A stretch of 36,361 nt of DNA from Sphingobacteriia bacterium. Lineage in GTDB: Bacteria; Bacteroidota; Bacteroidia; Bacteroidales; TTA-H9. Within the stretch, counting starts at the first letter, position 1; every line of letters starts with the position of its first letter. Under the pieces are notes generated by a model. It saw only the letters and a list, made by a program, of their open reading frames with translations, had not been told where the DNA came from and ran no database searches. Shown here piece after piece: positions 4,175 to 11,412 of this stretch. The position numbers and the translations under genes were made by a program. The stretch spans positions 1-36,361 of the forward strand of contig JAJTBW010000016.1 of NCBI GenBank assembly GCA_021286705.1, given 5' to 3'.

Positions 4175-4807
4175 ATGCCAATTATTGACCTTTCACATAA
4201 AATTACAGCCGAATTGCCTCTTTATCCCGGTACACCTGACATTGAGGTTAGAGGTATTAAAACGGTTGAAAAAGACGGTTATGCGGAAGGAAAATTAAGC
4301 TTCACCTCGCATATTGGAACACATTTAGATGCGCCTGCTCATATGATTAAAGAAGGAGCCACATTAGACTCCTTCTCCATAGAACGCTTTGTTGGTACTG
4401 CTTTAGTTATTTCAACTGACAACACGCCCTTAATTGAAAGCGAAGCTATTATTCAGGCAATTGACCTCTATGGAAAACCCGACTGGATTATTCTTAGAAC
4501 AGGTTGGTCTCAGAAGTGGGGGACAGCTGAGTATTTTTGCGATTTTCCAATATTATCTCCTTCAGCTACCGAGCAGCTTATTAAGCTAAAAATATCAGGA
4601 ATAGCGATAGATGCGAGTTCCTTTGACCCGGTAAATGGCTCCTCTTTTTATAATCACTTGCACCTCTTAGGAGCTGAGATACTACTTGGAGAGAATTTCA
4701 CCAATTTAGGCCATCTGCCAACAAATCAACTGATCAGCCTTTCTGTGTTACCACTATTCTGGGATAACGCCGATGGTGCCCCCGCTCGTGCAGTAGCTCA
4801 ATGGTAA
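4175..4807 (+). CDS. Cyclase-family (kynurenine formamidase-like) metal hydrolase
   Basis: A 210-residue protein of the putative cyclase family (PF04199 type), which includes kynurenine formamidase and isatin hydrolase. The metal-binding signature HIGTHLDAPAH sits at residues 46-56, and IDLSHKI at the N-terminus and GIAIDASSFDP in the C-terminal half also fit. There is no signal peptide, so it is cytosolic. It is 17 nt downstream of lgt and likely in the same transcript. No tryptophan-catabolism gene is nearby, so kynurenine as the substrate is not supported; amide or lactone hydrolysis is the safest description. Confidence 0.8.
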   Translation: MPIIDLSHKITAELPLYPGTPDIEVRGIKTVEKDGYAEGKLSFTSHIGTHLDAPAHMIKEGATLDSFSIERFVGTALVISTDNTPLIESEAIIQAIDLYGKPDWIILRTGWSQKWGTAEYFCDFPILSPSATEQLIKLKISGIAIDASSFDPVNGSSFYNHLHLLGAEILLGENFTNLGHLPTNQLISLSVLPLFWDNADGAPARAVAQW

Positions 4808-5129
4808 AATAATAGCCCTCATTCAATGATTTAGATCGGTTAAAACGGCTAAGTTAGACTATGTGAACCCCATCTACTTCTCCTAATTTTCAACAGAACC
4901 TAGGTCAAATTATACACTTTCCCATTTTGATCAGCTTCACAAGGTTATAACATAATCCATTTTCTGGTATCATTAAGGATATCAGGGAAAAAACATACAT
5001 TTGCGTCAAAATAACCAACTCCGGGTAATCTCATGGAATGGATATGATTGAATGCAAAAGGACAAAATAACCTATTGGTTTTCAATCAAGAAGATTTCAA
5101 GTGGCGAACAAAAAACAAATTAATCTCTC
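4808..5129 (+). promoter_or_regulatory. Intergenic region with -7 box for the M3 peptidase gene
   Basis: About 320 nt without a gene. TACATTTG at 4996-5003 matches the -7 consensus, predicting a start near 5010 and a leader of about 120 nt before ATG 5130. No -33 TTG is found at the right distance. No convincing hairpin terminator follows the cyclase gene, and no small ORF with coding character was seen. Confidence 0.35.
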
Positions 5130-7232
5130 ATGAAGACACGTATTATGATTGCATTATTGGCTATCGCAGCCTTTACCGGATGCAAAACAGACAAAAAAGC
5201 ATCTGACAATCCTTTCTTAACAGAATACACAACACCATTTGGTGTGCCTCCCTTCGACAAGATTAAAGCCGAGCATTACATTCCTGCTTTCGAAGAGGGC
5301 ATGAAACAACAAAACGAGGCGATCGAAGCCATCGTCAATAACACTGAGGCACCTACATTTGCCAATACCATCGAAGCCCTTGAAAACAGTGGTCAATTAC
5401 TCGCTAAGGTTGGTGCTGTTTTCTTTAACATGACAGAAGCTGTTTCAACCGACTCACTTCAAAATATCTCAGAAATTATATCTCCAAAGCTCACTCAACA
5501 TAGCGATGAAATCATGATGAACGCTAAGTTGTTTGAGAAAGTTAAAGCCGTCTATGCTCAAAAAGATGCTCCCGGCCTGTCTGGAGAACAAAAGATGCTT
5601 TTAGAAGACACCTACAAATCATTCGTCAGATCAGGTGCCAATCTAAATGAAGAGCAAAAAACCAAACTTAAAGAGATCAACAGCAAATTATCATCGCTGA
5701 CTATAAAGTATGGGCAAAACTTACTTGCCGACAATAACGGATATAAACTTGTTATTGATAAAGAGGCTGACCTTGCAGGTCTTCCAGAGGGTGTTAAAGC
5801 TGCCGCAGCTGAAGAGGCTAAGAATCAAAATGAATCTGGAAAATGGATTTTTACCTTAGACCGTTCAAGCATCTTCACATTCTTGACCTACTCGGAAAAG
5901 AGAGACCTACGTCAGAAGATTTATGAGGAATATGCTACCCGTTGCAATCACAACAATGGAACAGATAACAAAGGTCTGATTGACTCTATCATCAACATGC
6001 GTTTGGCTAAAGCGCAGATTTTGGGTTACCCAACCTATGCTGCATATGTTCTCGAAGAAAACATGTCAAAAAATCCTGAAAACGTATTTAATCTTCTGAA
6101 TAAACTTTGGACACCAGCGATAGCAAAAGCAAAAGCAGAACTTGCTGATATGCAGAAACTAGCTGATAAAGAGGGTGCCAATATTAAACTCGAAAACTGG
6201 GATTGGTTCTACTATGCAGAAAAGGTTCGCAAAGAAAAATATGACCTTGATGAAGAGATGCTTCGTCCCTATTTTAAACTCGAAAATGTTGTAGAGGGAA
6301 TCTTCAGCACTGCAACCAAACTGTATGGGCTCTCATTTAAAGAGAGAAACGACCTTCCTTTATATCACCCTGATGCTAAAACTTATGAAGTATTTGATAC
6401 CGACGGCAGCCATCTAGGCATTCTTTACATGGACTATCACCCAAGAGCCAGCAAAAGAGGTGGTGCATGGTGTACCAGTTTCCGTGATGCAAAAAAGGTT
6501 GATGGAAAGAGAATTGCACCAGTAGTATCTATTGTATGTAACTTCACAAAACCTGCCGGTGATTTACCTGCACTCTTAAACTTTGATGAAGTTGAAACCC
6601 TCTTCCATGAGTTTGGACATGGTTTACATGCTCTTTTAAATCAATGCACATACACTACAACGTCTAACGTCCCACGTGACTTCGTTGAGTTACCCTCTCA
6701 AATTATGGAGAACTGGGCATCTGAACCAGAAGTAATGGCTGTTTATGCTCGTCACTACAAGACAAACGAAGTGATTCCACAGGCTCTCGTTGAGAAAATC
6801 AAGAACAGTGGTACTTTCAACCAAGGCTTTGCAACCACTGAATACCTTGCTGCATCTCTACTTGATATGGATTACCACACAGTTGCTCAACCTGCTAAAA
6901 TTGATGTTGCATCATTTGAAAAAGCTGCAATGGATAAGATAGGTCTTATTCCACAGATACTTCCCAGATATCGTTCAACCTATTTCTCCCACATCTTTGA
7001 TGGAGGATACTCAGCTGGTTACTATGGATACATATGGGCTGAAGTACTCGATGCTGATGCATTTAAAGCATTCAAAGAAACCGGAAACATCTTTGACCAA
7101 ACTAAAGCTAAAGCCTTCAGAACTGAGGTGCTTGAAAAAGGGGGCAGTGAAGATGTAATGGAAATGTACAAGAAATTCCGCGGACAAGAACCTGCTATCG
7201 ATGCACTACTTGTTAAAAGAGGCTTAATCTAA
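5130..7232 (+). CDS. dcp: M3-family metallopeptidase lipoprotein (peptidyl-dipeptidase Dcp-like)
   Basis: A 700-residue zinc peptidase. The N-terminus is a lipoprotein signal with lipobox FTGC (Cys18), so the enzyme is membrane-anchored on the far side of the inner membrane. The mature protein opens with the family's NPFLTEYTTPFGVPPFDKI region. The zinc site is HEFGH (His493, Glu494, His497), and the third ligand is probably Glu520 in RDFVELPSQ, at the spacing seen in neurolysin-type enzymes. The C-terminus has HIFDGGYSAGYYGYIWAEVLDADAF, typical of M3. Length agrees with Dcp (about 680) plus the signal. It releases dipeptides from the C-terminus of oligopeptides, which fits a peptide-fermenting lifestyle. 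A hairpin terminator follows immediately. Confidence 0.93.
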   Translation: MKTRIMIALLAIAAFTGCKTDKKASDNPFLTEYTTPFGVPPFDKIKAEHYIPAFEEGMKQQNEAIEAIVNNTEAPTFANTIEALENSGQLLAKVGAVFFNMTEAVSTDSLQNISEIISPKLTQHSDEIMMNAKLFEKVKAVYAQKDAPGLSGEQKMLLEDTYKSFVRSGANLNEEQKTKLKEINSKLSSLTIKYGQNLLADNNGYKLVIDKEADLAGLPEGVKAAAAEEAKNQNESGKWIFTLDRSSIFTFLTYSEKRDLRQKIYEEYATRCNHNNGTDNKGLIDSIINMRLAKAQILGYPTYAAYVLEENMSKNPENVFNLLNKLWTPAIAKAKAELADMQKLADKEGANIKLENWDWFYYAEKVRKEKYDLDEEMLRPYFKLENVVEGIFSTATKLYGLSFKERNDLPLYHPDAKTYEVFDTDGSHLGILYMDYHPRASKRGGAWCTSFRDAKKVDGKRIAPVVSIVCNFTKPAGDLPALLNFDEVETLFHEFGHGLHALLNQCTYTTTSNVPRDFVELPSQIMENWASEPEVMAVYARHYKTNEVIPQALVEKIKNSGTFNQGFATTEYLAASLLDMDYHTVAQPAKIDVASFEKAAMDKIGLIPQILPRYRSTYFSHIFDGGYSAGYYGYIWAEVLDADAFKAFKETGNIFDQTKAKAFRTEVLEKGGSEDVMEMYKKFRGQEPAIDALLVKRGLI

Positions 7233-7246
7233 TCCTCATCCACATT

Positions 7247-7281
7247 AAAAACCGGCTTTATGATAAAGCCGGTTTTTTTTT
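7247..7281 (+). terminator. Rho-independent terminator of the M3 peptidase gene
   Basis: Ten-base-pair stem ACCGGCTTTA (7251-7260) / TAAAGCCGGT (7264-7273) with a 3-nt loop, followed by a T-run to 7281. It starts 15 nt after the stop codon. Confidence 0.9.
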
Positions 7282-7507
7282 AATCTTTCCATAATAAGAA
7301 CAATATTGAAGAAAAGTACTGTCAACTAAGTTAAAGAGCCACAAATAATAACATGTAGCAGAATTTAAAGCAGACCTTATAACAACCTCCCTTTCTTTCT
7401 GAATTTGGAATCCCGTTATCTCTTCATACAGCCATCTTCGACTTTTTTATCGAATTACAATAACCACCAAATCGCTCTAAACATTGGATTAAGTGGCCTA
7501 TATGAGT

Positions 7508-7615
7508 ATTGAATTCAAAATTCTAGAATTCAATGATTAGCTAACAACTAGCACCTGGCAACTCGTCAAGTTGTTGCCAGCAGGCAGAAGCTAGCTCCCA
7601 GAAGCATCCTTTCAT
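7508..7615. repeat. Degenerate intergenic repeat tract (copy B)
   Basis: Within the 460-nt gap 7282-7741. GAATTCAAAATTCTAGAATTC-like units are followed by an AGC/CTGGC-rich part, echoing 1-170. It contains a hairpin, CTGGCAAC (7555-7562) / GTTGCCAG (7573-7580), with a 10-nt loop. The rest of the gap (7282-7507 and 7616-7700) shows nothing recognisable apart from its AT-richness. Confidence 0.45.
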
Positions 7616-7700
7616 TCTCATATAAGAACATAAAAAAGCAACTTGTAAACTTTGAGAAAAATTTTATTTTACAAAAACCACTAATTGTTATTCTTTTTTC

Positions 7701-7708
7701 TAAATTTG
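7701..7708 (+). promoter_or_regulatory. -7 box (TAAATTTG) upstream of the secreted protein gene
   Basis: TAAATTTG matches TAnnTTTG and lies 33 nt before ATG 7742, giving a leader of about 27 nt. No TTG at the -33 distance. Confidence 0.4.
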
Positions 7709-7741
7709 AGTGACTAGATATACATATAAACATCCCAAAGG

Positions 7742-9430
7742 ATGTATAAAGCAGGCAGCAGGATTGTATTTTTTATTGGCTTCTTTGTTTTATTACTTAT
7801 CAACCAATCATTCACGAAGCCAACTTGGGGGCTGTTTCTAATTACTAGCAGCATTACCTCCTCTGGGATTTCTATGCATCAACTGGAAGACACCACAAAT
7901 CTGATCAAGAAGGATTCAATCAATTGCAAGAGTGATTTTAGTGAGCCTGAACTTAGCGACAGAGACAGAGCCCCATGTCAACCGATTATTACAACTATCG
8001 ATACATTTCAATGTATCCCGATCCCTTACTCTGATGCAAACGGATACCTATATTTCAGACAATGTCAAAATGATAGCGTCAAAATAGCCATTAAATGCCA
8101 GTATCCACAGAACAACACCAACTATACACAGCACGATACTCTAAACACCTATCACTGGCTTTTCGGGGATGGTCAGACAAGAATAACAGACGACCCCTAT
8201 ACATGGTATCCATATGACTCAGCAAAGGGTTATGAACTAAGCGTATTTGTCAAGGATAGCAATAACTGCGTCTCCTTACCTATTGTCTGTAGGGTTGTTG
8301 TCTCGGGCAATCCATTTCAACAAATCAAGAATCCGCCCCCTTTATGTGTTGGTGATACTACGGCAATCACCGTAGCCTCACTTACGAGCTATACACCCTA
8401 TTCTTACAGCCAGGTAACCAGTCAGCGATTTGATAGTACTATGTTTATTCCTGATGGATTAAATTGCAACCCTACTAACCCTTGTTACAACACGGAGGTA
8501 TTCTTTACTTCATTTCTGCCTAATCAAACGATAACCTCTGGAAACGACATTCAATCGATCTGTGTCAACATGGAACACTCATACGTGGGTGATATGGAGT
8601 TCACGTTGCAATGCCCAAACGGACAATCAACCACTCTCAAAAAGTACATCAACTGGGGTGGAGCAGACATGGGCCTACCCTGCCAAAAAGATGGAGATCC
8701 ACATAAATGCGACTCCCCTCTCTATTGCGATCCAAACACCAATACACCAGGTACTGGATGGAACTATTGCTGGTCTGAGATCTATCCAGACGATAGCACC
8801 ATTAACTATAACGCTGGTAAAGCACGACTTGACTCCACACATCTTGTTGCTAAACTACACTATTATCAACCAGATTCATCATTCGGGAAACTTATTGGTT
8901 GCCCCCTAAATGGACGTTGGAGTATACAGATCTGTGACAAATGGAAAGTAGATAACGGTTACATCTTTAACTGGTCTATGGAACTCTCCCCTTCTCTATT
9001 ACCACAAGCGTGGGGATACTCTGCAGGTATTGATTCAACATGGATTACTGGCCCAGATATAATCGCAACAAATGGACAAACGGCCTATGTAAGTCCATCT
9101 ACAACAGGCACATTTAGCTATAACTGTTATATTCTTGATGAGTTTCAGTGCATCTGGGACAGCACATTACAAGTCTCATCTTGGAACTTACCCGAAGTCG
9201 ATCTCCCCGATGACACAGCAGTTTGTGCCAACACACCACTTATACTGAATGCTGGCCCAAATACTAACAGTTACCAATGGAGTACCGGGTCTACCCTACC
9301 ATCAATATCGGTTAATACCTCTGGGCTCTATACTGTTATTGTGACCTCCCAACACGGATGTATTACTCGAAAACGTGTCATGGTTACGATTAACCCCCGC
9401 CCCGGAATTAAACTAATCAGGCATTTTTAA
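7742..9430 (+). CDS. Secreted PKD/P-domain-like adhesin, C-terminal sorting domain absent
   Basis: A 562-residue secreted protein. A hydrophobic N-terminal segment (residues 8-24, FFIGFFVLLLINQSF) can act as signal. Around 100-185 is a PKD-like module with WLFGDGQ. Around 215-425 the sequence resembles the jelly-roll P domain of proprotein convertases, ending GRWSIQICDKWKVDNGYIF then NWSMEL. The last 100 residues are an Ig-like repeat common in gliding-motility and T9SS cargo (DDTAVCANTPLILNAGPN, then SYQWSTGS). Such proteins normally end in a T9SS sorting domain. This one stops soon after the Ig-like repeat with TINPRPGIKLIRHF, so it is probably truncated or exported otherwise. It is cysteine-rich for a Bacteroidota surface protein. 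The DUF4276/ATPase module lies convergently 90 nt downstream. Function unknown. Confidence 0.65.
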   Translation: MYKAGSRIVFFIGFFVLLLINQSFTKPTWGLFLITSSITSSGISMHQLEDTTNLIKKDSINCKSDFSEPELSDRDRAPCQPIITTIDTFQCIPIPYSDANGYLYFRQCQNDSVKIAIKCQYPQNNTNYTQHDTLNTYHWLFGDGQTRITDDPYTWYPYDSAKGYELSVFVKDSNNCVSLPIVCRVVVSGNPFQQIKNPPPLCVGDTTAITVASLTSYTPYSYSQVTSQRFDSTMFIPDGLNCNPTNPCYNTEVFFTSFLPNQTITSGNDIQSICVNMEHSYVGDMEFTLQCPNGQSTTLKKYINWGGADMGLPCQKDGDPHKCDSPLYCDPNTNTPGTGWNYCWSEIYPDDSTINYNAGKARLDSTHLVAKLHYYQPDSSFGKLIGCPLNGRWSIQICDKWKVDNGYIFNWSMELSPSLLPQAWGYSAGIDSTWITGPDIIATNGQTAYVSPSTTGTFSYNCYILDEFQCIWDSTLQVSSWNLPEVDLPDDTAVCANTPLILNAGPNTNSYQWSTGSTLPSISVNTSGLYTVIVTSQHGCITRKRVMVTINPRPGIKLIRHF

Positions 9431-9520
9431 GTCAGGCCTTTACGGTACCCTCCCCTACTTAAGTCATTGAAAACTGGGAAATTATTGGATTATGGAGTAT
9501 AAGTCATCAGACAACCGGCA

Positions 9521-10084
9521 TTAAATAAAAATCTTCCGAATCCCTTTAACAAACTGGTTAAAACTCTCAGATCGATTATTATTTACATCCAAAAATCTCG
9601 ATATTTCTCTAGAAGAAGAAACTTCATGATAATCTGGAAAAATCCTTTTTAATTGGTCTTTTGCATTCAACCGATCTGGATTTCGGAATTTTGCTTTTGA
9701 TATATAGTTTATACTTCTAAACGAAGGAAAAGCTTTTTCTATTGCCAGTAAATCGCCTAAATACCATGACTCCAGTTCCGTGCAGATAATCCTAATAAGA
9801 AGCCCCTTACTAAACGAGCCACATAACGACTTGATTTGCTGCTTAAGTATCTTACAATCTGCACTATCTTGATCATGCAATATAACAACAGAGATAGGCT
9901 CATGCCAGTTATTAAACACCTGCATCTTTGCCGGTATAGATTTTCTTAAGTCGCTTTTACCTTGATGCGGGCGTATAAAATAATTCTCGTCTAGCACCCA
10001 ATGGGATGGCACAATCATAGGAAGTAAGCTTCGTAGACATTCCTCCATTGATCGCTCTTCTACCAGAATTTCTACTCGTCTCAT
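9521..10084 (-). CDS. DUF4276-family Toprim-like protein, partner of the ATPase
   Basis: A 187-residue protein that I place in the DUF4276 family. A Toprim-like pattern is visible: an N-terminal acidic motif EILVEERSMEE (Glu9, Glu14), an acidic pair HDQD (Asp71, Asp73), and the DUF4276-typical TELESWYLGD (102-111). The usual glycine of the VEG motif is Glu10 here, which is odd. It starts 2 nt after the ATPase stop codon, so the two are certainly one operon and are likely translated together. Families of this kind pair with ABC-type ATPases in OLD- and PARIS-like anti-phage systems, where the Toprim partner is a nuclease. That role is inferred from gene pairing, not shown here. Confidence 0.7.
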   Translation of the reverse strand: MRRVEILVEERSMEECLRSLLPMIVPSHWVLDENYFIRPHQGKSDLRKSIPAKMQVFNNWHEPISVVILHDQDSADCKILKQQIKSLCGSFSKGLLIRIICTELESWYLGDLLAIEKAFPSFRSINYISKAKFRNPDRLNAKDQLKRIFPDYHEVSSSREISRFLDVNNNRSESFNQFVKGIRKIFI

Positions 10085-10086
10085 TA

Positions 10087-11295
10087 CTACTTTGATTTTG
10101 GACTACTCCCAGTAAAATATCCTTGAAGCCATAGGGCTCCTGGTTTATCCCCCGCATCAACTAGAGCCTTTACCATTCTATCATCGGAAGCTCTTGTGAT
10201 TGATGAGTACCCATCAAGTTTCTTTAACCAGAAAATCTCCTCAGCATTTAATGCGTTGACAAAGTCAGGAGAATGAGTAGAAACAAAAACTTGCCCGCCC
10301 CTTTTTGCATAATCTCTAAATTCTTCAGCTAATTCAAATAAGAGTTCCGGATGCAGATAATTTTCTGGCTCTTCAACACATAATAATGGATGCGGTTTTG
10401 GATCATTTAACAACATTAGATAGGCAAACATTTTAATCGTTCCATCAGAAACATATCTTGAAATAAAAGGGTCTTTAAAACTGCCGTCCTTAAACTGAAG
10501 AACAATTCTTCCATCAGATGTCTCTTCAGCTTTTACTGAATGTATACCAGGGATCCTTTGCCTGAGTTTGTCTAAGATCTTTTTAAATTCCTCTGGATAA
10601 TTTTCAAATATAAACTTAGTATATTGGGCTAAATTATTGCCAGTCGTAGAGAGATGCTCACTAATTCCTGTATCAGAGATCGCTTGGGCTGATTGGATCT
10701 GAAAACTAGACACATACCAATTCTCAAGTAACCTTCTGAACGAATTTATAGCTTTGAATTTTTTGAATTGACCTAAGCCTTTTATCGCAAGGATATCAGG
10801 TGAATCAAGTTTTTGCGTCTCTCTTTTAACTTGAAAATTCTGTTTTTCAAATTCAAACTCCTCTTCATTGGTAATTGCAGACCCTTCTCCTTCTTTAAAA
10901 TCAAGGAAATTGAATGGTTTACCAGTTTGACCACGACGGTATTTTAGAATCTCCTTTTTAATTACAGGAATGGTAGTTCCCTCTTTTACATCGATGGATA
11001 GTTCATAAGTTACTAAAGGTTGTTTCTCTCCATTCATATCAGGATTCCTGAACTTGATAATAAACTCAATTGGACCTTTACTATTCCTAGAACGTACTTC
11101 GTTTATTCCACCACGTTTAGATATGGCAGTCTTAATATTTTCACGCAAAGAATCACTTAGAAAACCAAAAACATCAAATAAGGTTGTTTTTCCTGAACCG
11201 TTTGCACCTAAAAAAACACAAAGGCTGGACAAATCTTTGATTTCAACCTCACGGAATACCTTAAAATTGCGTATTACAACTTTCTCAATTTTCAT
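10087..11295 (-). CDS. ABC/AAA-type ATPase (COG4637-like) of a two-gene module
   Basis: A 402-residue ATPase of the RecF/SMC-like class, without a long coiled coil. Walker A is GANGSGKT (30-37); the signature-like SDGT is at 283-286; Walker B LLCVEEPE is at 304-311; and the switch histidine is in STHSP (339-343). The start MKIEKVVIRNFKVFREVEI is the usual first strand of such ATPases. The family resembles COG4637 predicted ATPases, often encoded with DUF4276 proteins. It is the first gene of a two-gene operon with a -7 box about 20 nt upstream. Likely role: nucleotide-controlled sensor or activator of the downstream Toprim-like protein, possibly in phage defence. Confidence is high for the ATPase fold and moderate for the role. 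Confidence 0.85.
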   Translation of the reverse strand: MKIEKVVIRNFKVFREVEIKDLSSLCVFLGANGSGKTTLFDVFGFLSDSLRENIKTAISKRGGINEVRSRNSKGPIEFIIKFRNPDMNGEKQPLVTYELSIDVKEGTTIPVIKKEILKYRRGQTGKPFNFLDFKEGEGSAITNEEEFEFEKQNFQVKRETQKLDSPDILAIKGLGQFKKFKAINSFRRLLENWYVSSFQIQSAQAISDTGISEHLSTTGNNLAQYTKFIFENYPEEFKKILDKLRQRIPGIHSVKAEETSDGRIVLQFKDGSFKDPFISRYVSDGTIKMFAYLMLLNDPKPHPLLCVEEPENYLHPELLFELAEEFRDYAKRGGQVFVSTHSPDFVNALNAEEIFWLKKLDGYSSITRASDDRMVKALVDAGDKPGALWLQGYFTGSSPKSK

Positions 11296-11315
11296 TTTTT
11301 GATCAGTGTGAATTA

Positions 11316-11323
11316 CAAAAATA
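11316..11323 (-). promoter_or_regulatory. -7 box (TATTTTTG, minus strand) of the ATPase/DUF4276 operon
   Basis: The plus-strand CAAAAATA at 11316-11323 reads TATTTTTG on the coding strand. Predicted transcription start is near 11309, about 14 nt before the ATG (11295). The -33 element is not obvious. Confidence 0.4.
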
Positions 11324-11412
11324 ACAACTTTTACTCCTCTAATCGAGTTATTTGGTTGATTTCTGAATTCCCAATATTACGCTAATTGAAGTTTTGATTT
11401 AGACATCAAGGC

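Follow-up and report, generated by a model that had tools for sequence, protein, structure and literature searches.

The question raised by this locus is what a closely spaced pair of genes, one for an ABC-type ATPase and one for a DUF4276 protein, does among the ordinary genes of a member of the Bacteroidota. The pair lies in a stretch of 36,361 nt (positions 1–36,361 of contig JAJTBW010000016.1, Sphingobacteriia bacterium assembly GCA_021286705.1), referred to below as the window. Because the same pair occurs elsewhere within virus-blocking gene clusters, we regard the window copy as most likely a stand-alone member of an already catalogued phage-defence candidate, HEC-01. The fuller reading, that of a stand-alone HEC-01 copy in which the ATPase restrains a putative Toprim nuclease until a phage cue releases it, is given a probability of roughly three in four. 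HEC-01 as a catalogued candidate was already known; what is added here is the assignment of DUF4276 to an OLD-type Toprim fold with a shifted acid, the empty site in related genomes, and the range of host systems that take the pair.

A preliminary description, made from the letters of the DNA, had recognised a two-gene unit with its own promoter box in an otherwise unrelated stretch (Table 1). The observation of the pair is confirmed: both ORFs are exact and both are backed by Pfam. The genes are separated by a short gap, versus an overlap of 1–4 nt in many relatives. The upstream box, TATTTTTG, ends at the same nucleotide as the span first described and fits TAnnTTTG, which we take to be the Bacteroidota -7 consensus; no TTG is present at the usual spacing of a -33 element, 17–21 nt upstream of the box. 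In a profile scan, the flanking genes were ordinary ones (M3/Dcp-like peptidase, P-domain protein, M19 dipeptidase, YbjQ and CotH), with no defence gene among those scanned.

Table 1. Features of the ATPase–DUF4276 locus in the window
Feature	Coordinates	Strand	Basis or remark
DUF4276 gene, 187 aa, predicted Toprim nuclease effector; PADLOC HEC-01A, PDLC04143	9521-10084	minus	ORF, Pfam, PADLOC and model
E103-L104-E105 codons, putative counterpart of OLD T506-x-E508 and P2 OLD D541-x-E543	9770-9778	minus	E103 and E105 invariant; after strand 4 of model, at helix start
D71-Q72-D73 codons, predicted Toprim DxD	9866-9874	minus	D71 and D73 invariant in 22/22; after strand 3 of model
E9 codon, predicted Toprim metal-A glutamate, followed by E10 (acidic in 22/22)	10058-10060	minus	Invariant in 22/22; likened to OLD E400 by position after strand 1
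Intergenic gap of 2 nt between DUF4276 and ATPase genes	10085-10086	minus	ORF ends
ABC-type (OLD/PtuA/RecF-like) ATPase gene, 402 aa, predicted sensor and inhibitor; PADLOC HEC-01B, PDLC04144	10087-11295	minus	ORF, Pfam, PADLOC and model
ATPase H-loop His341	10273-10275	minus	Invariant in alignment A2
ATPase Walker B glutamate pair E308-E309 (VEEPEN)	10369-10374	minus	Invariant in alignment A2
ATPase Walker A, residues 30-38	11182-11208	minus	Alignment A2
TATTTTTG, Bacteroidota -7-type box, 28 nt upstream of ATPase ATG	11316-11323	minus	Pattern match only
Variable segment with the pair, Dcp-like M3 peptidase and P-domain protein	4808-11412		Absent at the site in 5/7 same-family relatives

Both proteins match HEC-01 models of PADLOC-DB 2.0.0 over their full length, the DUF4276 protein with an E-value of 1.2e-46 (PDLC04143) and the ATPase with 4.6e-175 (PDLC04144), and the two genes that match these paired models are adjacent, 2 nt apart. 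HEC-01 reportedly stems from a 2024 preprint (doi 10.1101/2024.01.29.577857). The literature searched, to which that preprint did not belong, contained no report of HEC-01 being assayed against phage, and none of the papers in it has the word DUF4276. According to a passage in one source, HEC stands for ‘Hma-embedded candidate’ (PMC10855318). Such embedding is seen in the family, one relative (L135) lying in a real Hma operon in the order HmaA-x-HmaB-pair-HmaC, whereas the scan of the genes flanking the window copy detected no Hma gene, and this copy sits outside any defence operon, between ordinary genes. HEC-01 is listed in a Desulfovibrio piger paper (PMC12724379), and two other candidates of the series, HEC-05 and HEC-06, are described in parts of two further papers as working defence proteins (PMC12988326, PMC11411939).

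The ATPase matches Pfam AAA_21 (9.4e-30) and AAA_15 (4e-26) and carries a Walker A motif (GANGSGKT), a Walker B motif (VEEPEN), a signature-like SDGT and an H-loop (STHSP), all conserved in the 21-row alignment A2. Its predicted model (pLDDT 85.2) lacks a long coiled coil, which bears out its earlier portrayal as coiled-coil-free. The best Foldseek matches of this model are PtuA, retron ATPases, Rad50 and OLD, and the closest by VIA are SMC heads (Z 20.2) and Rad50 heads (Z 18.9); since the VIA rows are mostly SMC and Rad50 heads, the fold of the ATPase cannot tell families apart.

The partner protein matches DUF4276 in Pfam (1.5e-12, 48.6 bits, cut-off 30.2). In its predicted model (pLDDT 84.0), strands and helices alternate as they do in Toprim folds; E9 follows strand 1 (residues 3–8), D71xD73 follows strand 3 (64–70) and E103xE105 follows strand 4. 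A Toprim fold with a glutamate after strand 1 and a DxD motif after strand 3 is what characterises the Toprim superfamily, and the model displays each of these. Foldseek returned 0 matches to it at E <= 0.001, with lumazine synthases as top rows, and a sequence search of the PDB yielded no relatives, just two ribosomal proteins (E 0.13 and 0.95). The match to OLD comes from VIA re-alignment of Foldseek's own candidates: the best is the Toprim region of Burkholderia pseudomallei OLD (Z 11.7, rmsd 3.8, 166 aligned), followed by OLD of Xanthomonas campestris (Z 11.0), PH0156 (10.6), Ts OLD (8.8), GajA (8.0) and AriB (7.7), against a background in which unrelated folds reach a Z of about 8.0 and AriB is no better. 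The parallel with ATPase-plus-Toprim systems such as OLD, Gabija and PARIS that had been drawn for this pair is thereby upheld by the HEC-01 profiles and by the structural comparison, which favours the OLD Toprim region over AriB and GajA.

The predicted metal site departs from that of OLD. E9, D71, D73, E103 and E105 are the same in all 22 aligned homologues, and their likely equivalents in OLD were assigned by order and by spacing relative to the strands of the model. In OLD, metal A is held by E400, D455 and D457 and metal B by E404, T506 and E508 (PMC6755086); in P2 OLD, the last two of these ligand positions are taken by D541 and E543 (PMC7049728). The metal-B acid that OLD carries at +4 (E404 in the B. 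pseudomallei protein) is missing from the aligned DUF4276 proteins, all 22 of which have M, A or I at position 13, so catalysis could be altered or lost. Position 10, at +1 from E9, is E or D in every one of the 22, and the ‘VEE for VEG’ noticed earlier as an altered N-terminal motif is therefore a trait of the subfamily: the motif is real, but it is not peculiar to the window copy. Taken together, the ABC-type ATPase encoded at the locus is intact, and the DUF4276 protein has, in its model, a Toprim-like fold with a conserved acidic metal site.

Three further DUF4276 loci are present in the genome of the window, L106 (1285-3047 of contig C320), L107 (261-2047 of C95) and L108 (175-711 of C238). 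They represent another HEC-01 subtype; an intact ATPase gene adjoins two of them, the match on C238 has an internal stop codon, and the DUF4276-type proteins of L106 and L107 have the usual EG..TE motif.

The two genes travel together. In 37/37 non-window loci with the ATPase, many of them closely related to one another, a DUF4276 gene lies directly behind it, on the same strand and in the same order. The window protein itself matches the DUF4276 gene in 32 of these (in some over part of its length) and relatives of the window protein do so in L096; L015 and L038 reach the end of a contig, and the DUF4276 gene is damaged in L009 and L021. Loci L010 and L011, from 7 loci found, were not counted as pairs (27–29% identity to part of the ATPase), none of 14 viral loci was counted separately, and L118 is on the same contig as L116. 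The distances of the ATPases and of the DUF4276 proteins are correlated (r = 0.80, n = 20; as high in 0/2000 permutations); pair loci are not independent, many Bacteroidota copies coming from one family and genus (f19, g60). Compared with the nearest relative, pN is 0.12 for the ATPase and 0.23 for the DUF4276 gene; synonymous sites are saturated, hence no dN/dS is given, and the low pN at such saturation indicates purifying selection on both genes.

The distribution of the pair is patchy. At E <= 1e-60, the ATPase is found in 37/395 genomes of the phylum, that of the window included (45 places, a locus being assigned to all but 15, among them G166, which was fetched later), and at E <= 1e-10 the DUF4276 protein is found in 0/8 relatives of the same family, in which ATPase matches are weak and generic. 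Endozoicomonas and Kistimonas have relatives, as do records of Synechocystis, Pseudanabaena, Meiothermus, Persicobacter, Aeromonas, Rahnella and Pseudomonas. Matches in viral collections are few, namely 4 loci by DUF4276 alignment and, by ATPase, 6 phage records, each of these 6 below 35% identity. At the site itself, the counterpart of window gene 4175-4807 sits 11–48 nt from the M19 gene in five of seven same-family loci (L101–L105), versus 6.6 kb in the window, a distance that includes the pair, the peptidase and the P-domain gene. The pair is thus encoded as one closely spaced unit, co-inherited and horizontally spread.

Evidence on function comes mainly from where relatives are found. In the nearest relative found, L005 (83% identity in the ATPase), the pair is nested in the order HsdM-HsdS-pair-HsdR, and L007 is arranged alike; in L094 it lies between type III Mod and Res; on a Meiothermus plasmid it is, by annotation, within a type I operon. 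Additionally, PglX is near the pair in L096, and on Synechocystis pSYSM a cysteine desulfurase and a phosphorothioation-associated methyltransferase adjoin it. Relatives are therefore not confined to housekeeping surroundings but nest in Hma, type I and type III R-M operons, and others stand beside BREX and phosphorothioation genes. The Rahnella copy is prophage cargo, and the stretches covered in Pseudanabaena and Pseudomonas contain no modification-system genes.

The neighbourhoods were scored, as the preliminary description had proposed. R-M queries matched 12/41 pair loci and 0/20 control regions, the controls being 14-kb regions at arbitrary positions in 10 pair-carrying genomes and the pair loci being longer, at roughly 20 kb. 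Five of the 12 matching loci had themselves supplied query proteins; four were confirmed independently, and L115 only through 52% identity between its R gene and the one in L007. With L080, L096, L132 and L135 added, a modification-system gene is present in at least 16/41 pair loci, and 25/41 have no such neighbour in what was checked, several of them not being fully annotated. PADLOC families at 1e-30 numbered 149 for the neighbours (120 proteins from 20 loci) versus 49 for the controls (120 proteins). A ResIII domain is found in 7/120 neighbours and is absent from the 25 commonest control families listed; these neighbour tallies cover the 25 commonest families only and hence provide no per-locus rate.

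Other named systems resemble the pair in part. PARIS likewise has its ATPase and Toprim protein on separate genes, the window ATPase matches AriA models (7.9e-29) and the effector model resembles that of AriB at the Z given above; the effector is, however, a DUF4276 and not an AriB family protein, its PADLOC matches at E <= 1 being HEC-01 only, with no AriB model, and membership was rejected. OLD and GajA of Gabija also combine an ABC ATPase with a Toprim region, that of OLD being the one that the effector fits best, and share with the effector the E, DxD and ExE-type residues. Here, in contrast, the two parts are on two ORFs and not in one polypeptide, the +4 metal-B acid is missing and +1 is acidic, and no GajB-like helicase is among the flanking genes scanned; membership of OLD/Gabija was rejected on account of the separate ORFs. 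AbiL (AbiLi with AbiLii/RloB) is a two-gene system of ATPase and Toprim-related effector whose RloB genes are found in type I R-M operons (PMC10440598). The window ATPase matches AbiLi at 9.8e-27, and AbiL was rejected because the effector matches DUF4276 only in Pfam (E <= 0.001) and HEC-01 only in PADLOC (E <= 1), with no RloB family. Septu and retron PtuAB were rejected because the partner is DUF4276 and not the HNH protein PtuB. MADS, named among ATPase–Toprim systems (PMC12409363), is approached through MAD3, which the ATPase matches along most of its length (5.3e-33); it was rejected since the score is 114.8 bits versus a cut-off of 420 and the flanking genes scanned (peptidases, P-domain protein, YbjQ and CotH) form no multi-gene MADS cluster.

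That the pair might be an anti-phage system, as the preliminary description had it, is well supported by guilt by embedding, relatives being nested in defence operons, and is supported by the sequence matches to HEC-01. A mechanism can be proposed by analogy. In PARIS, the ATPase AriA keeps the Toprim protein AriB inactive and frees it when it senses phage proteins such as Ocr, after which AriB cuts tRNA (PMC12409363). AAA partners neutralise Toprim toxins in the toxicity assays of the NetFlax study (PMC10440598), and in a survey of BREX, the Toprim-linked OLD-ABC modules that its loci contain are described as back-up effectors (PMC12839542). As the pair has the parts and habits of these modules, we infer a restrained nuclease that would be freed during infection. 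The ATPase would form an oligomer and keep the DUF4276 protein in an inactive state until it receives a phage cue, either an inhibitor of restriction or, perhaps, a state of the DNA that infection brings about. The cue would free or activate the Toprim nuclease, which would cut nucleic acid with two metals, perhaps tRNA (as AriB) or DNA (as OLD), and so halt the infection, the host probably being disabled in the process. In the window, the pair would act in this way with no partner system nearby.

The principal alternative is a toxin–antitoxin or mobile-element maintenance module, in which the Toprim protein would be the toxin and the ATPase its antitoxin, and the pair would persist by addiction and not by phage defence. 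This would suit the copies carried by a conjugative plasmid and by a prophage, which have no R-M genes nearby. It would also suit two damaged loci in which the ATPase is intact, L009 with a truncated DUF4276 gene (11188-11388) and L021 with one that lacks its middle (1329-1501), which look as if effectors had been lost before their keeper and are expected if the toxin, unlike its keeper, can be dispensed with. The neutralisation of Toprim toxins by AAA partners in the NetFlax study points the same way (PMC10440598). Recurrent nesting in chromosomal modification systems is, however, unexpected for pure addiction, and we consider this explanation unlikely, while noting that the addiction and defence ideas overlap mechanistically.

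Two further explanations are less probable still. An accessory pair for DNA repair or recombination, consisting of a RecF/RecN/Rad50-like ATPase and a Toprim partner with no role in immunity, would account for the nearness of the ATPase model to SMC and Rad50 heads by VIA and would agree with the similarity of OLD family proteins to repair enzymes (PMC7049728). It is hard to reconcile with the patchy spread (37/395 phylum genomes and 0/8 same-family relatives), with the position of the pair in a variable segment here and among defence genes in relatives, or with the fact that the nearest sequence profiles are those of defence candidates, and we deem it improbable. The least probable is that the pair became separated from an R-M operon and survives in this genome as an orphan that is degenerating or no longer works: neither ORF is disrupted, every motif is present, the pair has its own -7-type box, and there is protein-level constraint compared with the nearest relative, though this comparison spans time before any move. 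The idea is suggested by the nesting of that nearest relative, unlike the window copy, in a type I operon and by the internal stop codon at the C238 locus.

For the preferred reading, an ATPase-restrained Toprim nuclease acting in phage defence, a back-up role to restriction is suggested by how often relatives are inserted between the genes for modification and those for cleavage; since the window copy has no host operon, this role, if right, must be exercised here in trans or directly. A more specific proposal, which we advance tentatively and with the odds against it, is that the DUF4276 proteins of this branch are Toprim nucleases with a rearranged metal site (+4 acid lost, +1 acid gained, ExE in place of T/SxE), which together with the ATPase would form a portable fail-safe cassette. 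This would plug into self-marking immune systems of differing chemistry (R-M of types I and III, Hma, and the neighbourhoods of BREX and phosphorothioation genes) and would fire when phage inhibitors disarm them; alone, as here, it might guard a restriction system encoded elsewhere or sense phage directly. Punishing restriction inhibitors is the theme of PrrC and PARIS, and if the back-up idea is true, one small cassette would extend it to many host systems. For DUF4276, a testable role emerges from the predicted fold, the invariant acidic residues and the insertion into several kinds of modification system, that of a Toprim effector checked by an ABC ATPase, and the family-specific VEE/ExE site offers clear targets for point mutants.

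The PADLOC labels HEC-01A and HEC-01B are swapped between sets, DUF4276 being ‘A’ in PDLC04143/04144 and ‘B’ in PDLC04174-04206. The record that contains L135, NZ_AP026896.1, is a 4.94-Mb Aeromonas caviae ‘plasmid’ in PLSDB with 18 listed features and, judged by its size, looks like a mislabelled chromosome.
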